From Candidatus Poribacteria bacterium (GTDB lineage: Bacteria > Poribacteria > WGA-4E > WGA-3G): a stretch of 51,942 nucleotides of DNA. This document shows, one piece after another, positions 36,668 through 50,398 of this stretch. Position numbers and translations under genes: made by a program. The stretch is from NCBI GenBank assembly GCA_009841255.1, contig VXMD01000005.1:1-51942 (forward strand). The letters run 5' to 3'. The notes beneath the pieces were generated by a model. That model was given only the letters and a program-made list of their open reading frames with translations. It was not told the DNA's origin and made no database searches. Numbering within the stretch: the first letter of the stretch is position 1; each line of letters begins with the position of its first letter.

Positions 36668-36776
36668 ACGTAGTTTGACAATTTAAGACGGGGATATGGG
36701 CTGCCCTTTGCCTTAACAGCGGGAAAAAGTGCATCCAAGAATGTTTATAGGTGAGTTATACAACGGAGGAAGACCA

Positions 36777-38306
36777 GTGATAGATCTGAATAACGTCTTG
36801 AAGAATTCAGCACTCTTAGAGGTCCATGCACATTGGGACCCGATTGCCGATTCGACTTACAATTTACACAAAAAATCACCAGAAAGTGTTGAACTTTTTG
36901 ATCTGTCGCCGCACGAACCCATTAGAGAATATAAGGGAGAGGCTTTCAACGCCTTTCTTCCACCGTCAACTGTGACGGTCGGGGATGTTTGGGAACTGGA
37001 TCTGGACAAGGTGATTCCGTTCCTTTCCCAGTTTCATCTGGGTGCTACAGGGGAGTTGCGTCACGGTCAGAAGGGGGCTTTTGCCTGCTTACGCGCCCGC
37101 TCGACAGATTATGCAGATATCACGTTCCGAATTCATGCGGAGTTCACTTTGGCAACGCGTCCCAACCCGGACTGGAAACCGGGAAGTGATGAGAGGCAGG
37201 TCTATTTAGCCCGCTTTATTCCGTCACAATATACCGGACGATTACGCATCAACCTGCAGACAGGTTCTATTTGCGATTTTTCGCTAGCACTTCCGCCACG
37301 CAATAGCAATGTAGATATTAACGACTTCGGATATGCTGACATGGTCTTCGTGCCGCGCATGGAACTCCTCGCCACACCGACAAAAACATCGGACGACGTC
37401 GAGTGGGCAGAGGCTATCACACCCGAAGAAGCATGTAAAAGATTGGAATTGCAGTTCTACAAGTTCGCTGAAATCAACTGGCGACGCCTTGAAGAAGCCA
37501 TCGCGGAATCCGAGGCGACGCAGCGTCCGATTCATGCAGTCCTTGCTTGGGGTCCTTTAGACGATGAATCCTGCTGAGCGAACGGTAAAAACTTGAGAGC
37601 GGGTCCGCTCTCGAATCCAGAAGTGATAAAAACGCTCAACGAGCAGTTCATAAATACCTGGATAATGCCGCGCGATTTGCCGGAACTGATAGAGGGCGCA
37701 AAAAGTGAAAGCGTTCGCCGCTTCGCTACATCCCTCAAAGATTACTACACCTATCCAGTGGACATTCAGATCCTGAACTCCGAAGCCACGGTCATTATGC
37801 ACCAGCCGGAGAGCAAATTCCGTGTCAACAATCGGGCACAAGGATATTTAACGCTATTAACGTATGCGTTGGAAGAGAAGCCTTTATTGGAATCAGACGA
37901 TCCGAGTTTGCGTAAGCAGTTGATGGAGGTTTCAAACACCTTCCGCGCGCCCGGTGCGGGCTATCAGGATTACACACCCATTGAAATTGACACAACCGCG
38001 TTTGAACACGGCGGAACCCTCATCATTGATATAGAGGTAGGCGAAGGTGAGGCGACAGGTTCGTTCGATCTGTATGACGCTGACGTTGAACTGCCGACAG
38101 AGGGGTATCCGAACGACGCACTGACTTCCGTATGGGATATTCCGCCCGGGATCACTGGGCAAATTATTCACCGATTCATACGCGGTCAGCGGTTTAAGTT
38201 AGGGGCAACAGGTAATTGGTTCTGCGAACAGGGTAGCACCAACACTTTTCTTGCTAAAATCTCTGTCGTGCCAGCGAAAAATGAAGAAACGGAAGCGTCA
38301 TCGTAA
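36777..38306 (+). CDS. Putative selenoprotein: Cys-Sec thioredoxin-like protein with UGA read as selenocysteine
   Basis: Read as one gene of 509 residues. The GTG at 36777 has GGAGG seven bases upstream; an earlier in-frame GTG (36729) lacks an RBS. The frame runs to TGA at 37575-37577, immediately after a Cys codon (DDESC-U-ANGKNLRAGPLSNPE), and then remains open in the same frame to TAA at 38306. Cys266-Sec267 sits after a hydrophobic strand (IHAVLAWGPLDD), where a thioredoxin fold places its redox pair. What follows (EVIKTLNEQFINTWIMPRDLPEL, then YPVDIQILNSEATVIMHQPESKF) also matches the thioredoxin fold. A SECIS-like hairpin follows the TGA. The N-terminal 255 residues are of unknown family. 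The C-terminal 120 are beta-rich. No RBS or good start precedes the downstream half. Confidence 0.75.
37575..37614 (+). promoter_or_regulatory. Candidate bacterial SECIS element at the in-frame TGA
   Basis: GAGAGCG (37595-37601) pairs perfectly with CGCTCTC (37606-37612) around loop GGTC. U-A and U-G pairs extend the stem to nine. The loop begins 24 bases after the TGA (37575-37577). Bacterial SECIS elements sit directly after the UGA, with about 16-37 bases to a small apical loop having G among its first two positions; all these conditions are met. Confidence 0.7.
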
Positions 38307-38308
38307 AT

Positions 38309-39712
38309 TTAAATCTCAACGCGCACAAAGGCGAGATATGCACCCGACAAAAGAACAACGAAAAACAGGATCAACAAGAGTAAATCCGTCGCCGCGGTGT
38401 TGAAATCACGAGTGAGACTGAGTGTATCTTCAAAGATCGGAATTGATTCGGGACTGATCGGTTTTTTCGACATACCTTTACGAATCCCAATGATATGAAG
38501 ACTGTCAGGATCTGCTCTATCCATATCCGTGACAAATTCGCGGTATTCGCGGGCATAATGTTGAACATTCTCCACAAATTGTAGATGCCGTTCAAATCCT
38601 GTCCCAGCAAAAACCTCAAGAAGGTGCTGGACAATCGCGACGGGTGAGATACGCGTGGCGGAACGCGCCAGTTGAATTTGGGCGTGCTGCTGGTCTAAGT
38701 GTTTTTGGCTCAAACGTTCCCGCTGTGCGGCTTCATTGGTGACATACTCACCTCCTAACTGTATTTTTTTCACTGAAAGCTCATGTGTGTTTTGCAAGCG
38801 AGCCTCGTATTCACTCTTGAGTTCATTATGCAGTTGCTTTCGGCGTTCATAGAATTCGTCGTCAGTCATCGGGTTTGAAAATCCGCTTGCAATGGAGGCG
38901 AGTGTACTTGGCATAAAAACGACAAAAGTAACCCACATCAATAGGAGTACCACAAGACTCGCAGCGTTTTGCTGTACACGCGACGACACTAACAAACCCA
39001 ACGCAAGAAATAGACACAGGTACAGAAGCGCAATAAGAAAAATGATGCCTAAACGACTCCATGCCTCGGTACCGAGTTGAACATCGTCGGACGTGGAAAC
39101 CAACAACAGATTTATCAATACAGCAAGCGTAAACGGAACGCCAATACTTATCAATGCGCCTAAAAACTTGCCAATCAGCACGGTGTGGCGCGGAACTGGG
39201 TTCGCCAATGTTAAACGTAATGTTCCTTGCCCTCGCTCGCCGGAAATCGAATCGAAGGTGAACAGGATAGCGATGAGACTCAAGACGTATCCGATCACAA
39301 ATATCCAATCTACTTTGATAGTGTCTGGACGGATATTTCTTGAATTGAGCGTCGCGGGTCGATATAACAGCTGCCAGAAACCTCTTAAGTCATCGGTGAT
39401 CCAATAGACAAACCCACCATTGACCCTACCTGACAAAAAGACATCGCCGCCCTCTGCACAGAAATGGAGTGGAGCCGGCTTTTTGTAAAGATTTCCGGGA
39501 CCCCATTGCGCAATCTCATATAAATCCGTTCGAGATTTTAAGTGATTCAGCGATCTTGTGACGGCATCGTGGTATTTCTGCATCCGCACGGGGTGTTCCC
39601 GGAGATTTACAACCGCATTGGTTAGCATTAAACCCAAAAGCAACACTGTCGCAAGTGCAAACCTGAGGCTATTCAGATTGTCGTAAATTTCCCGTTTCGC
39701 AATATGCCACAT
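38309..39712 (-). CDS. ABC-2 type permease, A-type paralogue 1
   Basis: 467 residues. TM1 is at 15-35 after the cytoplasmic start MWHIAKREIYDNLNSLRF. An extracytoplasmic loop with HFCAEGGDVFLS follows. A cluster of membrane segments (about 135-270) surrounds GERGQGTLRLTLANPVPRH at 158-175, the cytoplasmic coupling segment of ABC-2 permeases. A soluble region at about 275-430 and a final TM ending FVRVEI complete it. It is the last gene of the array and ends two bases from the convergent selenoprotein gene. No ATPase is nearby. The substrate is unknown. Confidence 0.85.
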   Translation of the reverse strand: MWHIAKREIYDNLNSLRFALATVLLLGLMLTNAVVNLREHPVRMQKYHDAVTRSLNHLKSRTDLYEIAQWGPGNLYKKPAPLHFCAEGGDVFLSGRVNGGFVYWITDDLRGFWQLLYRPATLNSRNIRPDTIKVDWIFVIGYVLSLIAILFTFDSISGERGQGTLRLTLANPVPRHTVLIGKFLGALISIGVPFTLAVLINLLLVSTSDDVQLGTEAWSRLGIIFLIALLYLCLFLALGLLVSSRVQQNAASLVVLLLMWVTFVVFMPSTLASIASGFSNPMTDDEFYERRKQLHNELKSEYEARLQNTHELSVKKIQLGGEYVTNEAAQRERLSQKHLDQQHAQIQLARSATRISPVAIVQHLLEVFAGTGFERHLQFVENVQHYAREYREFVTDMDRADPDSLHIIGIRKGMSKKPISPESIPIFEDTLSLTRDFNTAATDLLLLILFFVVLLSGAYLAFVRVEI

Positions 39713-39849
39713 AAGTAACCAGTAACCAGTTAACAGTTTTCAGTTAAAGAGGTGTCTGGTAACAATCGACCCCAGTTTGCAATACTCCAAGCAACAAGTG
39801 AATTGTTACAGAATGCCTCTTAACTGACCACTGGTAACTGACAACTATT
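39713..39849. repeat. Heptad-arm inverted-repeat element, copy between permeases B1 and A1
   Basis: Arms CAGTAACCAGTTAACAGTTT (left) and ACTGGTAACTGACAACT (right) surround a core containing AGTTAAAGAGG and, inverted, CCTCTTAACTG. Nearly identical to the copy at 42787-42930, including GGTAACAATCGACCCCAG and GTGAATTGTTACAGAATGCC. Confidence 0.75.
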
Positions 39850-41382
39850 TTATACTTCACTCCTTTGGAAAACCAGATATATCCCTACGAACAGAACGAG
39901 GTTGATTATCACCAGTAGACAGATATCCGGCAGTGCTCGCGCTGCATTTACGCTGATATCGCTTCTCTGAAAAGAAAACTGAGGTAAATTCTTCCAGTCC
40001 ACCGCGCCCCTGTCTGCAGAAAACCATTGTCGAGACCCAAATACCTTTTCATCGTAGTAATAATCAATTAAGGTCCGTCGGTACCTTCGTGCTGCCTCGA
40101 AAAAATCTTTGAGTCCGAGTAGACCTGTTCCTGCCCAAGCTTGTGTTGCAGCATCGTACATCCCAACTGGCGAGAACCGCAAAAGGATTCGATCAACTTG
40201 TGCCGGCTGAAAGAAGACGGTTTCGAGTGTTGGTCTTCGGACAAGCGATGCCTGTTCAGCGGTATCAACGATCTGCGCTCCGAGGAAGCGGTAATAGTTT
40301 TGCGCGTGCGGCACCTGAGGTTCGGATTCCTCTCTAAGCTTCTCAATGTGTGAACCAGCCAAGTAGTGATACTCGAGTATTGATGAATTTTCATAAAAGT
40401 AGGCATAGTTGAAATCGGATCCCCCTTGCGTGCCGAAATTCGGGTCCTCGCCTCTCATACCGAAATGTGGATCTTCGCCGGGAACGGCATCATTCGCGAG
40501 GAAATGTTTTCGTTCTCTGTCGAATTCCTCCCATATCTGTTTAATTTGGTCAAAAGCGGATACCATACGTGCTTGTGAGGCGTGTGGGGGTGCAATCGCG
40601 GTAAGAATCACATTCGGATACACCAACACCCAAAACCCCCAAACAAACATAGCAAGCATCAATGCGGTGCCGGTTCTGCGGGTTGCTGCGGAGATTAGCA
40701 GGCCGATGCAGTAGAATACCGAGAGATACACAATTGAAGCAAAAACAATTCCACTGATACGGAGAAAATCACCGATGCTCAGAGAAATAACGGTAGAGGT
40801 TGTCAGCAAAATCACGGCAAGGATCAGACTCATCAGCAGCGGCACCAACAGACATAGCATGGCACTGATGTATTTCGCAAACAGGATTTGACCCCGACTC
40901 ACGGGATGCGTTAGGACCAAACGCAAGGTGCCACGCTCGCGTTCCCCTGCCAAAGCATCGTAAGCAAAGATTAGTGCCATTAGACTCAGAACCACTTCAA
41001 AGATAAACACAATATCAATAGAAGAAAAGAGGTTGAGAAGTGAACTCGTCCCGTACATTTTAGCATCCCAGAGCGTCGGCACAAAACCGTGAGTTACCCA
41101 AATTTCGTTCCCCAACCGTTTATCCAACCCGACATTGAAAATACTCAACGGATTCGGCGGACGGAAGAGGTCTAATGCTCCCGCCGAATAGGTTTTCCTT
41201 TCCTGCAGTTGCTGATCATGCGCTTTGAGAGCAGTGTTGTAACCCTCCAACCGTCTTTCATAATCTTTGATGAGTACAGCGGTATTCGCCACCACAAGCA
41301 GCAACATAATGAAAACCGCTGCAGCAAATCGAAATGTCATCAGGTTGTCGAGGAGTTCCCTGCCAATGAGTGTTTTAAGCAT
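39850..41382 (-). CDS. ABC-2 type permease, B-type paralogue 1
   Basis: 510 residues, the longest B copy. N-terminus MLKTLIGRELLDNLMTFRFA with TM1 at 19-37, then the B-specific loop motif RPPNPLSIFNVGLDKRLGN (about 74-92). GERERGTLRLVLTHPVSRG at 146-164 is the coupling segment. Five membrane segments follow, then a soluble domain (about 260-470) and a final TM (LLVIINLVLFVGIYLVF). A glycine-rich insertion (DPHFGMRGEDPNFGTQGGSD), with an internal duplication of EDP-FG, distinguishes it from other B copies. It starts six bases after the stop of A2. Confidence 0.85.
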   Translation of the reverse strand: MLKTLIGRELLDNLMTFRFAAAVFIMLLLVVANTAVLIKDYERRLEGYNTALKAHDQQLQERKTYSAGALDLFRPPNPLSIFNVGLDKRLGNEIWVTHGFVPTLWDAKMYGTSSLLNLFSSIDIVFIFEVVLSLMALIFAYDALAGERERGTLRLVLTHPVSRGQILFAKYISAMLCLLVPLLMSLILAVILLTTSTVISLSIGDFLRISGIVFASIVYLSVFYCIGLLISAATRRTGTALMLAMFVWGFWVLVYPNVILTAIAPPHASQARMVSAFDQIKQIWEEFDRERKHFLANDAVPGEDPHFGMRGEDPNFGTQGGSDFNYAYFYENSSILEYHYLAGSHIEKLREESEPQVPHAQNYYRFLGAQIVDTAEQASLVRRPTLETVFFQPAQVDRILLRFSPVGMYDAATQAWAGTGLLGLKDFFEAARRYRRTLIDYYYDEKVFGSRQWFSADRGAVDWKNLPQFSFQRSDISVNAARALPDICLLVIINLVLFVGIYLVFQRSEV

Positions 41383-41388
41383 TTTCTA

Positions 41389-42786
41389 TCACACCTCAAC
41401 GCGCACAAACGCCAGATATGCACCCGACAAAAGAACGATGAAAAACAGCATCAACAACAATAAATCCATCGCTGCCGTGTTGAAATCTCTACTAAGGCTG
41501 ATCGTATCCTCAAAAATCGGGATTGATTCTGGACGCACGGGTTTCTGAGACATGGCCTTCCGAATACCGATGAGATGGAGGCTTTCTGGATCCCCCCTAT
41601 CGGTATCAACAATAAATTTGCGGTATTCGCTGGCGTAACGCTGTGCGTTCTCTAAAAATTGCAGATGTCGCTCAAAACCGGTTCCAGCAAAGGATTCAAG
41701 GAGATGCTGAAGAATCGCAGTCGGTGAGACGCGGGTGATGGAACGTGCATGTTGAACCTGTGCGACCTGTTCGTTTAACCGTTTTTCAATCAAGCGTTCC
41801 TGTTCTGCTGCTTCATGTGTGACATACTTGCTCCCTGCATGTAACGCCTCTGATCTGGATCTGCCCAACACGCTTCGGTATTCCTCAAGGTGTTTGTCAT
41901 TAATCTGTTTTTGGAGTACCCGCAATTCATCGTTCGACATGGGCGCGGAGAAACCGCTGGCAATTAGCGCGAGAACGCTGGGCATAAAAACCACAAGTGT
42001 AACCCACGTCAGCAAAAGCATAACAAGGCTCACCGCACTCCGCTGCACACGCGCAGACACAAGCAAACCCAACGTCAGAAACAGACATGTATACAGGAGC
42101 GCAACAAAGCAGATGATACCCAAGCGCCCCCACGCATCGGCACTGAGATGGATAGCACTTGACATAGAAAACACCAGAAGATTTACCAAGACAGCAAGTG
42201 CGAAGGGGATACTAATACTCATCAACGCCCCTAAAAACTTGCCGATCAGGACGGTGTGGCGCGGCACTGAATTGGCTAACATCAATCGAAGTGTGCCGCT
42301 CTCGCGTTCACCCGCAACGGAATCGAACGTAAACAACAGTGCTATCAGACTCAACACATAACCGATCACAAACGCCCAATCTATTTTGGTAACGTCCGGG
42401 CGAATATTGGTCAGATTTGAGGTTGCAGTTGGGTACCGCATCTGCCAGAAACTTTTTAGATCTCCGTTTTCCCAAAAGTAGTGATGTGCCTCAACAGCAC
42501 TTGACAGAAAGGGATCGCCCCCTTCCGCACAGAAATGAAGAACCGACGTTTTTTTGTAAAGTTTCCCGGGCCCCTTTTGTGCGAGTTCATACAAACTGTC
42601 CGCCCGTGCCTCTAAAGCATTACGTGCATTCGTAACAGAGGCGAGATACTTCTGTCCCCGCGCTGGCTGCTCTCGGAGATGCACAACGGCGTTAGTGAGC
42701 ATTAAGCCCAATAGCAACACGGTTGTTAGTGCAAACCGGAGACTATTGAGATTATCGTAGAGTTCACGTTTCGCAATATGCCACAT
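41389..42786 (-). CDS. ABC-2 type permease, A-type paralogue 2
   Basis: 465 residues. Compared with A1: same MWHIAKRELYDNLNSLRFAL start, FCAEGGDPFLS loop, and coupling segment GERESGTLRLMLANSVPRH. The C-terminal half is strongly conserved (GTGFERHLQFLENAQRYASE; ESLHLIGIRKAMSQKP; SRDFNTAAMDLLLL; LSGAYLAFVRVEV). The A-type carboxy tail is cytosolic. The upstream gap to B2 holds a heptad-arm element, so this gene may need its own translation signal there. Confidence 0.85.
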   Translation of the reverse strand: MWHIAKRELYDNLNSLRFALTTVLLLGLMLTNAVVHLREQPARGQKYLASVTNARNALEARADSLYELAQKGPGKLYKKTSVLHFCAEGGDPFLSSAVEAHHYFWENGDLKSFWQMRYPTATSNLTNIRPDVTKIDWAFVIGYVLSLIALLFTFDSVAGERESGTLRLMLANSVPRHTVLIGKFLGALMSISIPFALAVLVNLLVFSMSSAIHLSADAWGRLGIICFVALLYTCLFLTLGLLVSARVQRSAVSLVMLLLTWVTLVVFMPSVLALIASGFSAPMSNDELRVLQKQINDKHLEEYRSVLGRSRSEALHAGSKYVTHEAAEQERLIEKRLNEQVAQVQHARSITRVSPTAILQHLLESFAGTGFERHLQFLENAQRYASEYRKFIVDTDRGDPESLHLIGIRKAMSQKPVRPESIPIFEDTISLSRDFNTAAMDLLLLMLFFIVLLSGAYLAFVRVEV

Positions 42787-42930
42787 AAGGAACCAGTTAA
42801 CAGTAACCAGTTAACAGTTTTCAGTTAAAGAGGGGTTTGGTAACAATCGACCCCAGTTCGCAATATTCCAAGCAACAAGTGAATTGTTACAGAATGCCTC
42901 TTAACTGGCCACTGGTAACTGACAACTATT
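42787..42930. repeat. Heptad-arm inverted-repeat element, copy between permeases B2 and A2
   Basis: Nearly identical in core and right arm to the element at 39713-39849, with one extra left-arm heptad pair (AACCAGTTAACAGTAACC). The close match indicates that the permease pair was duplicated, or gene-converted, with the element already in place. Confidence 0.75.
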
Positions 42931-44448
42931 TTATACCTCACTCTTGATGAAAATCAGAAATATCATTACGAACAGGACTATGTTGATCGTTAACAACAGG
43001 AACAGATCTGGAAATGCGCGCTTGGCATTTATGCCTATATCACTTCTTTGAAAGGAAAACTGGGGCAGTGTGTCCCAGTCCACTTTCCCCTTGTCCACAG
43101 CGAGCCACTGTCGAGAGCCGAACGCCTTCCTATCGTATAGATAGGCGACCACTGCTTGCCGGTATTCTCGAACTGCGTGGAAAAAATCTTGAATACCTCT
43201 CAAATCGGTGCCTGCCCATGCCTGTGTTGTGGCATCGTACATTCCGACTGGCGAGAGTTTCAACAATATTCTATCAACGAACGCTGGCGTTACGAAGATT
43301 TCCTGCAGCACCTGTTTCCGGATAAGCCATGCTCGATTTGCTGTATCAACCATGCGAGGTCCCAGGAAACCGTGGTAATTTTGGGCATATTGGACTTTAG
43401 GGAGGTATCTGTCATAGAAGTCGTTATAGGATATAACACTCCAATAGTAATACAACAGGGTTAATTGATTCTCCATAAATCCATCACCACCCGACCATCC
43501 ACTGGGACCGTCCATATCGAATATCGGGTCATCTCCTGGAACTGGGTCGTTAGCAAGGAAGTTTTTTCGCTCTCTGTCGAATTCTTCATATATCTGCTTT
43601 ATTTGATTGAAAGCGGATGCGGCGCGTGCCCCTGAAGTGTCTTGCGGAACATTCGTGGCAAGAATCATATTCGGATAGACCAATACCAAGAACCCCCAAA
43701 CAAACATTGACAGCATCAGCGCGGTACTGGTGCGGCGTGTTACTGATGAAATCAGGAGCCCTATGAGGTAAAACACTGAGAGATACATAAGCGATGAGAG
43801 AACGATCCCACCCATGCGGAGAAAATCCGCGGTGCTCAAGGAAATTGAGGTGGAGGTCGTTAGCAGAATCACGGCGAGGAGCAAACTCATCAGCAATGGC
43901 ACAAGCAAGCAGAGCATCGCACTGATGTACTTCGCAAGCAGGATATGTCCGCGTCGGATAGGATGTGTGAGAACGAGGCGTAAGGTGCTGCGCTCGCGTT
44001 CTCCTGCCAAGGCATCGTAGGCGAATATGAGTGCGAGTAGACTGAGAACCACCTCAAAGATAAAGACGATATCAATAGAAGAGAAGATGTTGAGAAACGA
44101 ATTGTCCGAACTGTCCATTTCGGCATCCCACAGTGCCGGAACAAACCAATGCGACACCTGAATTTTGTTCCCCAATCGCTTATCCAACCCAACATTGAAT
44201 AGGCTCAAGGGGTTGGGTGGACGATCGATGTACAATCTTCCCATCCCAGGCGAGTAGGTTTTCCACTTATGCAATCCCTGCCGATGTGTCTCAATGGAGG
44301 TGTTGTAACTCTCCAATCGACGCTCGTAATCTTGGATGAGTACAGCGGTGGCGGCAACCACAAGCAAGAGTGTAATGAAAACAGCTGCGGCAAATCGGAA
44401 GGTCATCAGGTTGTCGAGGAGTTCCCTGCCAATGAGTGTTTTAAGCAT
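42931..44448 (-). CDS. ABC-2 type permease, B-type paralogue 2
   Basis: 505 residues. B-type start MLKTLIGRELLDNLMTFRFA, loop RPPNPLSLFNVGLDKRLGN and coupling segment GERERSTLRLVLTHPIRRG (Gly to Ser within the usual RERGT). The soluble part carries NFLANDPVPGDDPIFDMDGPS and YAQNYHGFLGPRMVDTANRAW. The last TM ends IFLIFIKSEV. Six bases separate its start from the stop of A3. The region around this junction is almost identical in DNA to the B1/A2 junction. Confidence 0.85.
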   Translation of the reverse strand: MLKTLIGRELLDNLMTFRFAAAVFITLLLVVAATAVLIQDYERRLESYNTSIETHRQGLHKWKTYSPGMGRLYIDRPPNPLSLFNVGLDKRLGNKIQVSHWFVPALWDAEMDSSDNSFLNIFSSIDIVFIFEVVLSLLALIFAYDALAGERERSTLRLVLTHPIRRGHILLAKYISAMLCLLVPLLMSLLLAVILLTTSTSISLSTADFLRMGGIVLSSLMYLSVFYLIGLLISSVTRRTSTALMLSMFVWGFLVLVYPNMILATNVPQDTSGARAASAFNQIKQIYEEFDRERKNFLANDPVPGDDPIFDMDGPSGWSGGDGFMENQLTLLYYYWSVISYNDFYDRYLPKVQYAQNYHGFLGPRMVDTANRAWLIRKQVLQEIFVTPAFVDRILLKLSPVGMYDATTQAWAGTDLRGIQDFFHAVREYRQAVVAYLYDRKAFGSRQWLAVDKGKVDWDTLPQFSFQRSDIGINAKRAFPDLFLLLTINIVLFVMIFLIFIKSEV

Positions 44449-44454
44449 TTTCTA

Positions 44455-45864
44455 TCATACCTCAACGCGCACAAACGCAAGATATGCCCCGGATAATAGT
44501 ACTATGACAAACAGCGTCAACAACAGCAAATCAACCGCCGCTGCGTTGAAATCCTTGCTGAGGCTGAGCGTATCTTCAAATTTGGGAACTGCCTCTGGGC
44601 TGACAGGTTTCTGGGACATACCTTCACGAATACCAAAGATATGTAGGCTTTCCGGATCAGCGCTATCGGTATCATTGATGAACACCCGGAGTTGCTGCAC
44701 GTAAGATTTCACGTTCGCTAAGAATTGTAGGTGTCGTTCAAAGCCTGTTCCCGCGAAGGCTTCAAGGAGATGCTGGAAAATCGTGACAGGGGAAAGACGG
44801 GTGATGGCACGCGCTCGGTTCACCTGAGAAACTCGCTGGTTTAAACGTTCTTCGTGCAAGCGTTCCTGCTGTTCGGCGTCTTTGATAACGTATTCGCCTG
44901 ACAATTGTATGCTTTTCACCGAATCGTCAGGAGGTCTATACCGATATCTCCCGTATTCTTCTCCAAGTTCTTCGTGAAGTTGCCAAGAGCGTTCCGAAAA
45001 TCCGAAAGTGGGCCTGGGCGATGCAGAGCCACCTGCAATAGATGCAAGGGTGCTCGGCATAAAGACCACAAGGGTAACCCAAACCAATAGAAGGATCACA
45101 AGACTGACTGCACTTCGCTGCACACGCGTCGACACTAACAGCCCTAAAGCGAGAAACAGACATGTGTATAGAAACGCGATACCGAAGATGATACCTAAAC
45201 GTCCCCATGCGTCTGCCCCGAGATGAACCTCACTTGACGTGGAGATCACCAACAGATTCACCAACACGGCAAGTGTAAACGGGATGTTAACACTTATTAA
45301 TGCGCCCCAAAATTTGCCAATGAGTACTGTGTGCCGTGGAATTGAATTCGCCAAGGTCAGTCTTAAGGTGCCACGCTCGCGCTCACCGGAAATGGAATCG
45401 AAGGTAAATAGAAGCGCGACGAGACTTAAGACGTAGCCGATGATGAACCCCCAGTCTACTTTGGTGACATCTGGGTGGACATTGGCCAGATTGGAGGTGA
45501 CCGATGGATATACCAATATCCAGAAACTTTTTAATCTGTCGGTGCTCCAACGATGGCGTCCGCCTTCTGCGCGATTTGACAAAAACGCTTCACCGCCCTC
45601 TGCACAGAAGCGGAGCGGAGACGGTTTCTTGTGGAGGTCGCCAGGACCCTGTTGCGCGAGTTCATATAAACCGTTCTCGGCATGAGATGTTAAGCGAGCT
45701 TGATATTCAGCGACAGCATCCCGATATTTCTGAACCCGCTTCGGGTGTTCCCGGAGATGTATAATCGCGTTGGTTAACATCAGACCTAGCAATAACAAAG
45801 TTGCCAGCGCAAACCGGAGACTATTTAGGTTATCGTAGAGTTCGCGTTTCGCTATATGCCACAT
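44455..45864 (-). CDS. ABC-2 type permease, A-type paralogue 3
   Basis: 469 residues. A-type signatures FCAEGGEAFLS and GERERGTLRLTLANSIPRH. The soluble middle differs most from the other A copies (GGSASPRPTFGFSERSW; YGRYRYRPPDDSVKSIQL), while the C-terminal 120 residues remain conserved (GTGFERHLQFLANVKSY; ESLHIFGIREGMSQKP). This suggests that the extracytoplasmic or linker part evolves faster than the membrane core. Confidence 0.85.
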   Translation of the reverse strand: MWHIAKRELYDNLNSLRFALATLLLLGLMLTNAIIHLREHPKRVQKYRDAVAEYQARLTSHAENGLYELAQQGPGDLHKKPSPLRFCAEGGEAFLSNRAEGGRHRWSTDRLKSFWILVYPSVTSNLANVHPDVTKVDWGFIIGYVLSLVALLFTFDSISGERERGTLRLTLANSIPRHTVLIGKFWGALISVNIPFTLAVLVNLLVISTSSEVHLGADAWGRLGIIFGIAFLYTCLFLALGLLVSTRVQRSAVSLVILLLVWVTLVVFMPSTLASIAGGSASPRPTFGFSERSWQLHEELGEEYGRYRYRPPDDSVKSIQLSGEYVIKDAEQQERLHEERLNQRVSQVNRARAITRLSPVTIFQHLLEAFAGTGFERHLQFLANVKSYVQQLRVFINDTDSADPESLHIFGIREGMSQKPVSPEAVPKFEDTLSLSKDFNAAAVDLLLLTLFVIVLLSGAYLAFVRVEV

Positions 45865-45969
45865 TTTATTAGTTATCAGTTGTCAGTCGTCAGTTACCAG
45901 TTACCAGAGGCGTTGGTTAAGGGAAAGTCTCTTAACTGGACACTGGAAACTTCTTTACTGAAAACCATC
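45865..45969. repeat. Heptad-arm element, diverged copy between permeases B3 and A3
   Basis: Left arm AGTTATCAGTTGTCAGTCGTCAG and right arm GGACACTGGAAACTTC around CGTTGGTTAAGGGAAAGTC. Different core from the copies at 39.8 and 42.9 kb, so it represents an independent or older insertion. Confidence 0.65.
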
Positions 45970-47481
45970 CTACACTTCGGTTTTGATAAAAATCAGAAAT
46001 ATTACAATGAAAAGTGCGACATTCATCATGAGCAAAAGGCAGACCTCTGGTAGTGCCCGCTTTGCATTTGTGTCGATATCCACCCTTTGAAAAGAGAATT
46101 GAGGCAGACCGCTCCAATCCGCCGCCCCTTTGTCCGAAGAGAACCATTGTCGAGCCCCGAACGCCTCTTTATCGTAGAGATAGTCAATCACCTGTTGTCT
46201 ATAGTGTCTCGCGGTCTCGAAAAAATCTCTGACCCCGCGCAAATCCGTGCCTGCCCATGCTTGCGTTGTTGCATCATAAAGTCCGACTGGCGAAAGTTTC
46301 AACCAAAGTCTTTCCACATTTGCAGGGTGAATATAGATATCTTCGAGTGCAGGCTTGCGAATGAGCCATGTCCGGTCGGCTGTACTGATAATCTGGGATC
46401 CGAGGAAACGGAAATGCTTCTGGGCATGCGGCATCTTGCGTTCATCTTTCTCACCAAACCCATCAAACTCCATAACACTTTCATAGGTGTACAGGAGCGA
46501 ATGAGGGTTGTCCCAAAAGTAAGCGTGGCGGGATCCCCATCCCCTGAGTTCAAGCCCCCAATCTTCCCCTGGGAAATCGTCAGTGGCAAGGAAGTGTTTC
46601 CGCTCTCTGTCGAATTCCTCCCACATCTGTTCGATGCGATTGAAATTGGATGTCGTGCGCGCTTGTAGGTTATCGTGGCGCGGGATCACAGTTAGAATCA
46701 CATTCGGATACACCAGCACCAAAAATCCCCAGACGAACATAGAGAGCATCAATGCGGTGCCGGTTCTACGCGTTGCCACCGAAATCAACAGTCCGATGAG
46801 GTAGAATACGGAAAGATACGCGATAGATGCGAAAACAATCCCACTGATCCGTAGGAAATCATCGATATTCAGGGAAATAGTGGTAGACATCACCAGCAGA
46901 ATCACTGAGAGAAGTAAGCTTATCAGCAGTGGCACCAGCAGGCAGAGCATCGCACCGATGTATTTGGCAAACAGGATGTATCCACGTCCAATGGAATGTG
47001 TGAGGACTAAACGCAGTGTCCCGTGCTCGTATTCTCCCGCTAGTGCGTCGTAGGCGAAAATCAGCGCCATTAGACTCAGGATCACCTGAAGGATAAAGAC
47101 AATATCCATTGAGGCGAACATATCCATGAACGGATTGTCCGAGCCGTGCATGCCTGCATCCCAGAGGGTTGGAACAAATCCGTGTGTCACTAAAACCTCG
47201 TTTCCGAGCCGTTTATCGAACCCGGTACTGAGGATGCTCAATGGATTCGGGGGGCGATCGACGTGCAATTTCTCCATTCCTGCGGAATATGTCCCCTTCT
47301 CTTGGAGTTGCCGCTGATGCATTTTGACAGCGGCGGTGTGGCCCGCCAAGCGTCGCTCATAATCCTCTATAAGCACAACGGTATTGGCGACGACAAGCAG
47401 GAGGGTGATGAAAACGGCTGCGGCGAAGCGGAATGTCATCAGATTGTCGAGGAGTTCTCGACGGATGAGTGTTAGTAGCAT
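45970..47481 (-). CDS. ABC-2 type permease, B-type paralogue 3
   Basis: 503 residues. Start MLLTLIRRELLDNLMTFRFA and loop DRPPNPLSILSTGFDKRLGN. The coupling segment is altered to GEYEHGTLRLVLTHSIGRG (Arg-Glu-Arg replaced by Tyr-Glu-His), the only copy with this change. The remainder follows the B pattern with final TM LLLMMNVALFIVIFLIF ending KTEV. It starts three bases after the stop of A4. Confidence 0.85.
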   Translation of the reverse strand: MLLTLIRRELLDNLMTFRFAAAVFITLLLVVANTVVLIEDYERRLAGHTAAVKMHQRQLQEKGTYSAGMEKLHVDRPPNPLSILSTGFDKRLGNEVLVTHGFVPTLWDAGMHGSDNPFMDMFASMDIVFILQVILSLMALIFAYDALAGEYEHGTLRLVLTHSIGRGYILFAKYIGAMLCLLVPLLISLLLSVILLVMSTTISLNIDDFLRISGIVFASIAYLSVFYLIGLLISVATRRTGTALMLSMFVWGFLVLVYPNVILTVIPRHDNLQARTTSNFNRIEQMWEEFDRERKHFLATDDFPGEDWGLELRGWGSRHAYFWDNPHSLLYTYESVMEFDGFGEKDERKMPHAQKHFRFLGSQIISTADRTWLIRKPALEDIYIHPANVERLWLKLSPVGLYDATTQAWAGTDLRGVRDFFETARHYRQQVIDYLYDKEAFGARQWFSSDKGAADWSGLPQFSFQRVDIDTNAKRALPEVCLLLMMNVALFIVIFLIFIKTEV

Positions 47482-47484
47482 CTA

Positions 47485-48894
47485 TTACACCTCAACGCGC
47501 ACAAAGGCGAGATACGCTCCCGACAGAAGCACCATCACAAACAGCGTCAACAGCAACAATTCCGTTGCCCTCGTATTGAAGTCCTGGCTCAGACTCAGCG
47601 TGTCTTCAAATTTTGGAACTGACTCCGGCAGGATCCCTTTCTTCGTCATACCCTCACGAACACCAATGATATGGAGGCTCTCTGGGTCTGATCTGTCCGT
47701 GTCAGCGACGAATTCACGAAGTTGTCGGGCGTAACGTTGCGCGTTCTCGACGAATTGCAAGTGTCGCTCAAACCCGGTTCCAGCAAACGATTCGAGGAGG
47801 TGTTGGAGAAGTGTGGCGGGTGAGATACGCGTGATGGAACGAGCGTGTTGAACCTGCGCAACTTTCTCTATTAAGTGTTCCCGGTTTAAGCGTTCTTCGG
47901 CGTCTGCGTCTTGGGTAAAGAACTCACTCTTTCCTGTCAACGTTTCCTTATCTACGACATCTGACCAGAGCCATTTGCCGTATTTCTGCCAGAGCTCATC
48001 TTGAATTTGGTTACGACGCTTCCATACGGGCTCGGAAGACATCGCTGGTGAGAATTCACTCGCAATTGCGGCGAGGGTACTCGGCATAAAAACAACAACG
48101 GTGATCCATATTAACAGGAGTATCACCAGGCTCACCGCACTCCGTTGCGCACGCGCAGATACTAACAGACCTAATGCCAGAAACAGGCACGTGTACAGGA
48201 GTGCAACAAGGAAGATGATACCCAAGCGTTCCCATGCTTCGGTATTGAGGTGAACAGCGTTTGATGTCGAAATTAGCAAGAGATTTATTAACACCGCAAG
48301 CGTAAAAGGGATACTTACACTTATCAGTGCCCCCAAAAACTTACCGATCAGGACGGTATGTCGTGGCACTGAATTTGCAAACATCAATCGGAGCGTGCCG
48401 CGCTCGCGTTCACCGGAGAAGGCATCAAAAGTGAACAAAAGTGCAATCAGACTCAAGACGTAACCGATGACAAATGCCCAGTCCAGTTGGGTAACGTCCG
48501 GTCCAACGCGCTTCATACTTATATTAGCATCCGGATATTTCAGTTTCCAGACCCCTCTTAGATGTTCGGAATACCCAAAAGGACTCCCCCCCTCAATAGT
48601 GTCTGGCAAAACAGGGTCTCCCCCCTCCGCACAAAAATAGAGGGATGACGGCTTTTTATACAGCTTTCCGGGTCCCTCTTGTGCGAGTTTATACAAACTG
48701 TCCTCGGTGTGAGAAGCCATGCGCGCCATAGATCCGCTGACAGCGTCATGATACTTCTGCATCCGCTTTGGATGTTCGCGGAGATGTCCGATAGCGTTGG
48801 TGAGCATCAATGCTAACAGCAACACGGTTGTCAGTGCGAATCGGAGACTATTGAGGTTATCGTAGAGCTCGCGTTTCGTGATATGCCAAACCAT
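47485..48894 (-). CDS. ABC-2 type permease, A-type paralogue 4
   Basis: 469 residues from ATG 48894, one base after the stop codon of B4 (TAA-A-ATG). An in-frame start seven codons upstream would lie inside B4 and is rejected. Start MVWHITKRELYDNLNSLRFA, loop FCAEGGDPVLP, coupling segment GERERGTLRLMFANSVPRH, end LSGAYLAFVRVEV. This is the only B-A junction without a repeat element and shows the tightest coupling; it probably reflects the ancestral two-gene unit. Confidence 0.85.
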   Translation of the reverse strand: MVWHITKRELYDNLNSLRFALTTVLLLALMLTNAIGHLREHPKRMQKYHDAVSGSMARMASHTEDSLYKLAQEGPGKLYKKPSSLYFCAEGGDPVLPDTIEGGSPFGYSEHLRGVWKLKYPDANISMKRVGPDVTQLDWAFVIGYVLSLIALLFTFDAFSGERERGTLRLMFANSVPRHTVLIGKFLGALISVSIPFTLAVLINLLLISTSNAVHLNTEAWERLGIIFLVALLYTCLFLALGLLVSARAQRSAVSLVILLLIWITVVVFMPSTLAAIASEFSPAMSSEPVWKRRNQIQDELWQKYGKWLWSDVVDKETLTGKSEFFTQDADAEERLNREHLIEKVAQVQHARSITRISPATLLQHLLESFAGTGFERHLQFVENAQRYARQLREFVADTDRSDPESLHIIGVREGMTKKGILPESVPKFEDTLSLSQDFNTRATELLLLTLFVMVLLSGAYLAFVRVEV

Positions 48895-48895
48895 T

Positions 48896-50398
48896 TTACA
48901 CTTCACTTTTGACAAAGATCAGAAATATTATCATGAAAAGAATGACGTTGATGAGCAGTAATAGGCAGACATCGGGTAACGCTCGTTTCGCATTTGTTCC
49001 GATATCGCTTCTCTGAAAGGAAAACTGAGGCAGCGCGTTCCAGTCAACCTCCCCTTTGGCGGCAACAAACCACTGTCGAGACTCGAATATCTTATTGTCG
49101 AGAAAATAGTCAACCACTGCCTGTTGGTAGCGTTGACCTGCTGTGAAAAAATCTTGGAGACCGTTTAAGTCGGTCCCTACCCACGCTTCAGTCGCCGCAT
49201 CATACAGACCTACGGGTGAGAATTTTAACAACATCCGTTCCATTTTTGCGGGTTGGACATAGATCATCTCCAGTGCAGGCTTTCGGACAATCCACGTTCG
49301 GTCTGCTGTGTTGGTAACCTGTAGACCGAAAAAGCGGTGATAATTCTGAGCGTGCGGCACCTGTGGCTCAGATTCCTCTTTGAGTGTTTCAAAGTGGAAC
49401 CCAGTGATCTCGTAATATAGTAATTTCGATGCGTCGTCATCGCCACCCCAAAAAGAGTAGCCATCCCCCCATAAACCGAAATCCCAATCTTCCCCGGGTA
49501 CAGGGTCATTGGCGAGAAACTGCTTGCGTTCTCTGTCAAATTCTTCCCATATCTGTTTGATTTGATTGTAAGCGGAGGTTTCTGTACCCGTGTGCGGATC
49601 GGTTTCAATCGCGGTAAGAATCATATTCGGATACACCAAGACCAAGAACCCCCAGACGAACATGGCAATCATGAGAGCAGTCCCGGTTCGGCGCGTCGCT
49701 GCTGAAATCAGTAGACCGATGAGATAGAACAACGATAGATAGACAAACGACGTAAAGATGACCCCACCGATACGGAGAAAATCATCTGTGCTGAGAAAAA
49801 CAGAAGTGGAAGTCGTTAGCATCATCAGCACGAGGAGGAAACACATCACTACTGGCATCAGTAGACAGAGCATCGCACTGATGTATTTGGCAAATAGGAG
49901 ATGACCGCGCCGGACAGCGTGCGTCAGAACGAGTCGTAACGTACCACGCTCGCGTTCCCCCGCAAGCGCATCGTAGGCAAAGACGAGTGCCAATAGACTG
50001 AGAATCCCCTGAAAAATAAAAACAATATCAATGGAAGCAAAGATATTGAGGAACGCGTTATTCGACCCGTATTTCCCAGCATCCCACAGGGTCGGCACGT
50101 AAAGATAATTGACCCCGAGTGTGTTCCCTAACCGTTTGTCCAAACCGACATTGAAGATACTCAACGGGTTCGGCGGACGATAAGCGACTAAGCGCACCGC
50201 TGAGTAGGTCTTTGTTTCCAGCACTTCCTGCCGACGCTTTTGAGCAGCAGCGTCGTAACTCGCCAAACGTCGCTCATAATCTCTGAGGAGTACCGCAGTG
50301 TTCGCTACAACAAGCAACAACATAATCAAGACCGCTGCAGCGAATCGGAACGTCATCAGATTGTCGAGGAGTTCTCGACGAATGAGTGTTATCAACAT
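48896..50398 (-). CDS. ABC-2 type permease, B-type paralogue 4, first gene of the array
   Basis: 500 residues. Start MLITLIRRELLDNLMTFRFA, loop RPPNPLSIFNVGLDKRLGN, coupling segment GERERGTLRLVLTHAVRRG and end IFLIFVKSEV. It is the promoter-proximal gene of the eight-gene array. The 290 bp upstream (50399-50689), before tRNA-Ile, should hold its promoter and contain no ATPase gene. In related systems a GldA/NosF-like ATPase pairs with such permeases, so the ATPase must be encoded elsewhere. Confidence 0.85.
   Translation of the reverse strand: MLITLIRRELLDNLMTFRFAAAVLIMLLLVVANTAVLLRDYERRLASYDAAAQKRRQEVLETKTYSAVRLVAYRPPNPLSIFNVGLDKRLGNTLGVNYLYVPTLWDAGKYGSNNAFLNIFASIDIVFIFQGILSLLALVFAYDALAGERERGTLRLVLTHAVRRGHLLFAKYISAMLCLLMPVVMCFLLVLMMLTTSTSVFLSTDDFLRIGGVIFTSFVYLSLFYLIGLLISAATRRTGTALMIAMFVWGFLVLVYPNMILTAIETDPHTGTETSAYNQIKQIWEEFDRERKQFLANDPVPGEDWDFGLWGDGYSFWGGDDDASKLLYYEITGFHFETLKEESEPQVPHAQNYHRFFGLQVTNTADRTWIVRKPALEMIYVQPAKMERMLLKFSPVGLYDAATEAWVGTDLNGLQDFFTAGQRYQQAVVDYFLDNKIFESRQWFVAAKGEVDWNALPQFSFQRSDIGTNAKRALPDVCLLLLINVILFMIIFLIFVKSEV

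Follow-up and report, generated by a model that had tools for sequence, protein, structure and literature searches.

The gene at 36777..38306 (+) of the window, that is, the whole analysed stretch of 51,942 nucleotides from a Candidatus Poribacteria bacterium, is best explained as a bacterial gene of the selenoprotein N (SELENON/SEPN1) family with a selenocysteine (Sec)-containing product, in which the UGA at position 267 is read as Sec and whose product is likely a thiol-disulfide reductase (probability about 0.9). Judged from the sequence, the product is a predicted selenoprotein, and this call is based on the Sec machinery of the genome, the retention of the UGA in relatives, the selection acting on the hairpin and the coding constraint on both halves of the gene. 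The find extends the selenoprotein N family by a bacterial branch. Nothing on bacterial SELENON or on Poribacteria selenoproteins was found in the open-access literature, and a 2026 review covering 119 families of prokaryotic selenoproteins, which names those shared with eukaryotes, lists none with the present architecture and none named SELENON (PMC13188914). The family may have been recognized earlier in other literature or in database annotation.

A single reading frame interrupted by TGA

Frame analysis of 36777-38306 confirmed the proposal of the preliminary description that two adjacent open frames are one frame split by a single TGA after a TGC codon. The coding sequence runs from GTG at 36777 to TAA at 38306 and encodes 509 amino acids including Sec267, its sole interruption being the TGA at 37575-37577. 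Together with the preceding codon, this TGA would encode a Cys266-Sec267 redox pair (TGC-TGA, 37572..37577, +), giving SCUA here and SCUG in many paralogues. A Shine–Dalgarno sequence, GGAGG (36765..36769, +), lies 7 bases 5' of the GTG start. Among the six frames of the window, this is the only TGA flanked on each side by over 150 open codons, and the probability of 242 open codons by chance at the composition of the window is about 3e-6. The first in-frame starts 3' of the TGA are TTG 37593 (within the hairpin described below), GTG 37623 and ATG 37665; none of the three is preceded by a Shine–Dalgarno sequence, in agreement with the earlier claim that the downstream half has no ribosome-binding site.

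The conservation of the site was analyzed with a codon-free pattern, which returned 170 distinct motif contexts, comprising 167 with TGA, 2 with GGC and 1 with GGA, and none with a Cys codon, TAA or TAG. The frame continued across the UGA in 167/170 contexts. Substitution analysis of the orthologues L004-L014 showed dN/dS values of 0.10-0.17 before the UGA and 0.18-0.29 after it, indicating that both halves are protein under purifying selection. These results bear on the alternative of two adjacent genes, in which the TGA terminates translation and the downstream half either has a start of its own or is degenerate. UGA still serves as an ordinary stop codon in this genome, where it terminates 9 of the 33 other long ORFs in the window as well as some members of the selenoprotein N-like family itself, and TTG 37593 could act as a weak start. 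A second TGA seen in some paralogues proved to be the regular terminator ahead of the following gene. Set against this are the lack of a downstream Shine–Dalgarno sequence, the uninterrupted frame in relatives without TAA or TAG, the selection on the hairpin beyond the protein, the predicted thioredoxin fold spanning the TGA and the purifying selection 3' of it, and we consider two genes hardly credible.

In one relative (L026/L108/L171, G019:C167), the frame is broken precisely where the TGA would stand (DESCCGYRRVG...), which may reflect an indel, a pseudogene or an assembly fault.

Selenocysteine machinery and the SECIS hairpin

The search for Sec genes that had been suggested as a check found the complete set looked for. 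The genome encodes selA, a selB whose frame is open for 660 codons and which has tRNA-Sec directly downstream (78 bits, anticodon TCA, read as UCA), and a Sec-type selD whose own active site reads KCAGU. This selD (G000:C31:125360-126283) is itself a Sec form (KCAGUASK). Co-occurrence with selA was considered as further support and discarded as uninformative, 80 of the 83 genomes of the class matching selA. Genome G030, with a weak SelA match, was likewise rejected as a case of SelA loss, for it still has TGA copies and an assembly gap is likelier.

With this machinery, SelB and tRNA-Sec would decode UGA 267 as Sec at the hairpin that directly follows it, and we infer Sec insertion on these grounds. 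Decoding as Trp, Cys or Gly, through suppression or a changed code, was also weighed. Two further Gly forms were found after the pattern search, and Gly occupies the Sec site in five loci, which would suit such decoding. The dedicated Sec machinery with tRNA-Sec(UCA) and a Sec-type selD, the conserved SECIS and the use of TGA to terminate other genes, family members included, all argue against it, and we give insertion of another amino acid next to no credence. The Cys that the preliminary description proposed to look for at the UGA position of homologues, a usual but not strictly defining support for Sec, was seen in 0/170 contexts; where Sec was lost, it was replaced by Gly in the few such forms. 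In this Gly group (L055, L056:370-2121, L057, L164 and L165), GGA or GGC replaces TGA, and the N-termini resemble signal peptides. As these variants show, one paralogue group can do without Sec. Cys266 is retained in the Gly forms, so proteins of this group, if they function, have to do so in the absence of Sec.

The hairpin claimed in the preliminary description, GAGAGCG-GGTC-CGCTCTC starting 17 bases after the TGA with the loop after 24, was borne out, and its stem was even longer than described, with 9 base pairs below a GGUC loop (37593..37614, +). Folding of 37570-37620, as had been proposed, gave a stable hairpin of -17.1 kcal/mol (z -2.2). Synonymous recoding of the same peptide weakened the hairpin, with an observed mean of -9.5 vs a recoded mean of -4.7 kcal/mol. 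The synonymous-shuffle z averaged -2.16 over 150 unique sequences, 96% of them below -1, and was -0.01 in an upstream control region. In the TGA-anchored sequences, G was found at loop position 27 in 148/150 and position 28 was G or U, so that the hairpin directly 3' of the UGA carries a G in its apical loop, as is conserved in bacterial SECIS elements (PMC1794560). In two registers, 95-100% of the sequences retained six to seven core stem pairs, and some of the changes were compensatory exchanges among G-C, A-U and C-G. The hairpin is selected beyond the need to encode protein.

Kinship with selenoprotein N and predicted structure

The preliminary description knew of no family with this layout. 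This did not hold, since profile and BLASTP comparisons showed that the N-terminal and thioredoxin-like domains are those of selenoprotein N. The human SELENON luminal sequence used here was a provisional text rather than a database record; it was numbered from Sec462, and its register was tested against published residues, namely Arg291, His389, Sec462 and Arg466 (PMC8967691), Ser460 (PMC6332642) and codon 315, the first base of which is changed by c.943G>A (PMC12839072). The provisional sequence agreed with Arg291, His389, Ser460, Sec462 and Arg466, and its codon 315 was glycine.

A profile of 15 bacterial members matched the provisional human sequence with 181 bits and an E value of 2.8e-53 (assumed Z=20000). 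The part before the SCUG motif alone gave 2.7e-27 against the provisional sequence, the best of 200 shuffles reaching 0.11, and BLASTP of the window protein against it gave 2.8e-35, with about 33% identity over 245 aligned residues. Homology thus covers the luminal N-part and the thioredoxin part of SELENON, as compared with the provisional, register-checked human fragment. Human R291, H293, G315, N340, C461 and N483 aligned with the conserved R118, H120, G154, N178, C266 and N288 of the window protein, and R118, G154 and N178 were invariant or nearly so in the family. We take human H293 and N340 to be disease sites. The family motif is W-G-x-L-D-D-E-S-C-U-[GA]-x-G-K-x-L-R, with [SA]CU[GA] across the family at the Sec site in the thioredoxin-like domain; the Sec of SELENON lies in SCUG within its thioredoxin domain (PMC12839072, PMC8584023). 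Motifs of the N-part (FRxHAEF, QFxG, N-x-D and M-E-L) and S-C-U-x-x-G-[KR] of the thioredoxin-like part are shared with animal SELENON, and in both an RNA hairpin lies directly 3' of the UGA, which in SELENON mRNA is the SRE (PMC12936836).

A thioredoxin-like selenoprotein could have converged on the SCUG motif of SELENON without being a family member. The human sequence was provisional, and bacterial thioredoxin-like selenoproteins with the same fold, an active-site Sec and a SECIS just downstream are known, CU motifs occurring in other selenoproteins too (PMC13188914). The N-domain is similar as well, with the above E value obtained without the motif, and published disease positions match, which makes convergence very improbable.

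The bacterial family differs from SELENON in its bacterial SECIS and SelB decoding, in its extra C-terminal beta-sandwich, in its copy number (up to 18 matches per genome) and in its UGA-to-Gly variants. Neither an EF-hand nor a transmembrane segment or ER membrane anchor was found; the window protein starts close to the barrel-like domain and has no Pfam match. We regard the EF-hand and anchor as features added in the animal protein (PMC7474598); our claim is that the bacterial protein belongs to the wider family, and it does not extend to orthology or to shared regulation.

Searches with the window protein found no family in Pfam or NCBIfam and nothing by sequence in the PDB; the Pfam/NCBIfam matches of one member belong to the C-terminal TlpA-like fusion of L067 and were set aside. 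The structure was predicted by AlphaFold2 with 37 family sequences as input (mean pLDDT 86.5). Together with the Sec machinery and PDB comparison, the model supports the earlier proposal of a Cys-Sec protein that combines a thioredoxin-like part with a beta-rich tail; an N-terminal barrel-like domain precedes both. The N-terminal domain (aa 1-205, 36777..37391, +) is modeled as an antiparallel beta barrel-like structure (pLDDT 87) and is the part common to the luminal N-part of SELENON. Alone, it had no clear match in the PDB (Foldseek best E 0.07, VIA best Z 4.9), which is no evidence of a new fold.

The predicted thioredoxin-like domain carrying Cys-Sec (aa 216-371, 37422..37889, +), compared as residues 226-371, was closest to 3f9u (Z 13.2), DsbH 2ju5 (Z 12.9) and the ER protein Rp19, 1sen (Z 12.8, rmsd 2.4 A, 118 residues aligned). 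DsbH (Thioredox_DsbH, DUF255) and ERp18/Rp19 are thus the nearest solved thioredoxin folds (Z 12-13); they have a CxxC active site rather than a vicinal Cys-Sec pair and are not known to have a comparable N-domain. In the model, strand 252-257 precedes Cys266-Sec267 and helix 271-275 follows it, so from secondary structure the pair would take the place of the CxxC of thioredoxins. The C-terminal beta-sandwich (aa 376-503, 37902..38285, +; residues 373-503 in the structure comparison), absent from the human sequence compared, is predicted to resemble PPC/collagen-binding and GOLD domains (Z about 8-11).

The product is likely a putative thiol-disulfide (seleno)reductase that cycles via a Cys-Sec selenenylsulfide, with Sec attacking a disulfide or sulfenic acid and Cys resolving. 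We infer this redox activity, with its substrate and electron donor. Thiol-disulfide exchange is supported by the fusion of one paralogue to a TlpA/ResA/AhpC-like domain, which also hints at a redox partner; in that gene (L067:886-2592, -), the redoxin domain follows a SELENON-like selenoprotein at its C-terminus.

Family spread, significance and genome context

Ten matches were found in the genome of the window, and relatives were present in 42/60 near genomes and 65/85 genomes of the phylum, with up to 18 matches per genome. A 90%-identical relative (L004/L075) came from a Candidatus Poribacteria MAG. The contig scan, which used two patterns, one of them demanding a Cys codon where Sec stands, yielded 79 named loci from the best 80 of 148 matches, all from Poribacteria; given that pattern and selection, members may exist in other phyla. 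The prokaryotic selenoproteome would gain a large family, many individual genomes carrying more than 10 genes for this one kind of selenoprotein.

Loss of SELENON causes human muscle disease. The molecular role of SELENON has been called enigmatic (PMC12936836), and no solved SELENON structure was found in the PDB version searched. The N-domain model covers the part common to SELENON and is therefore a guide to SELENON too. The natural variants (Gly for Sec, the TlpA-like fusion) offer proteins for structural and chemical work in a family now open to bacterial study, and the bacterial branch provides a deep alignment against which disease variants can be judged, as well as a way to test the source of the SRE. 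A doubtful proposal, put forward tentatively, is that SELENON arose in bacteria or was exchanged with them, that the common ancestor of the animal gene and the Poribacteria family was already a selenoprotein with a hairpin after the UGA, and that the SRE is what remains of a bacterial SECIS.

The ilvE-selN order is conserved among orthologues, preceded by hisF in most. The window copy has neither a signal peptide nor a hydrophobic N-terminus and would act in the cytoplasm; several paralogues, among them L025, L056 and L070, are hydrophobic at the N-terminus and are possibly exported. Downstream, at 38309-50398 (-), eight ABC-2 permease genes stand in tandem, two types alternating (PF12679 plus DUF3526; four of the genes tested), and no ATPase gene was seen among them. 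The array hints weakly at a membrane target. As an addition to the selenoprotein reading, the bacterial SELENON might modulate these permeases as SELENON does SERCA, the arrays adjoining the gene and permease homologues lying within 4 kb of 14/79 family loci among the best 80 of 148 matches. The other 65/79 loci of that selection lack a permease, as do most of the closest orthologues (L005-L014), and the window copy looks cytosolic, so permease modulation is judged unlikely.

In L056:2169-3518 (-) and L059, an ECF sigma factor is fused to a copy of the C-terminal beta-sandwich and encoded beside SELENON-like genes.
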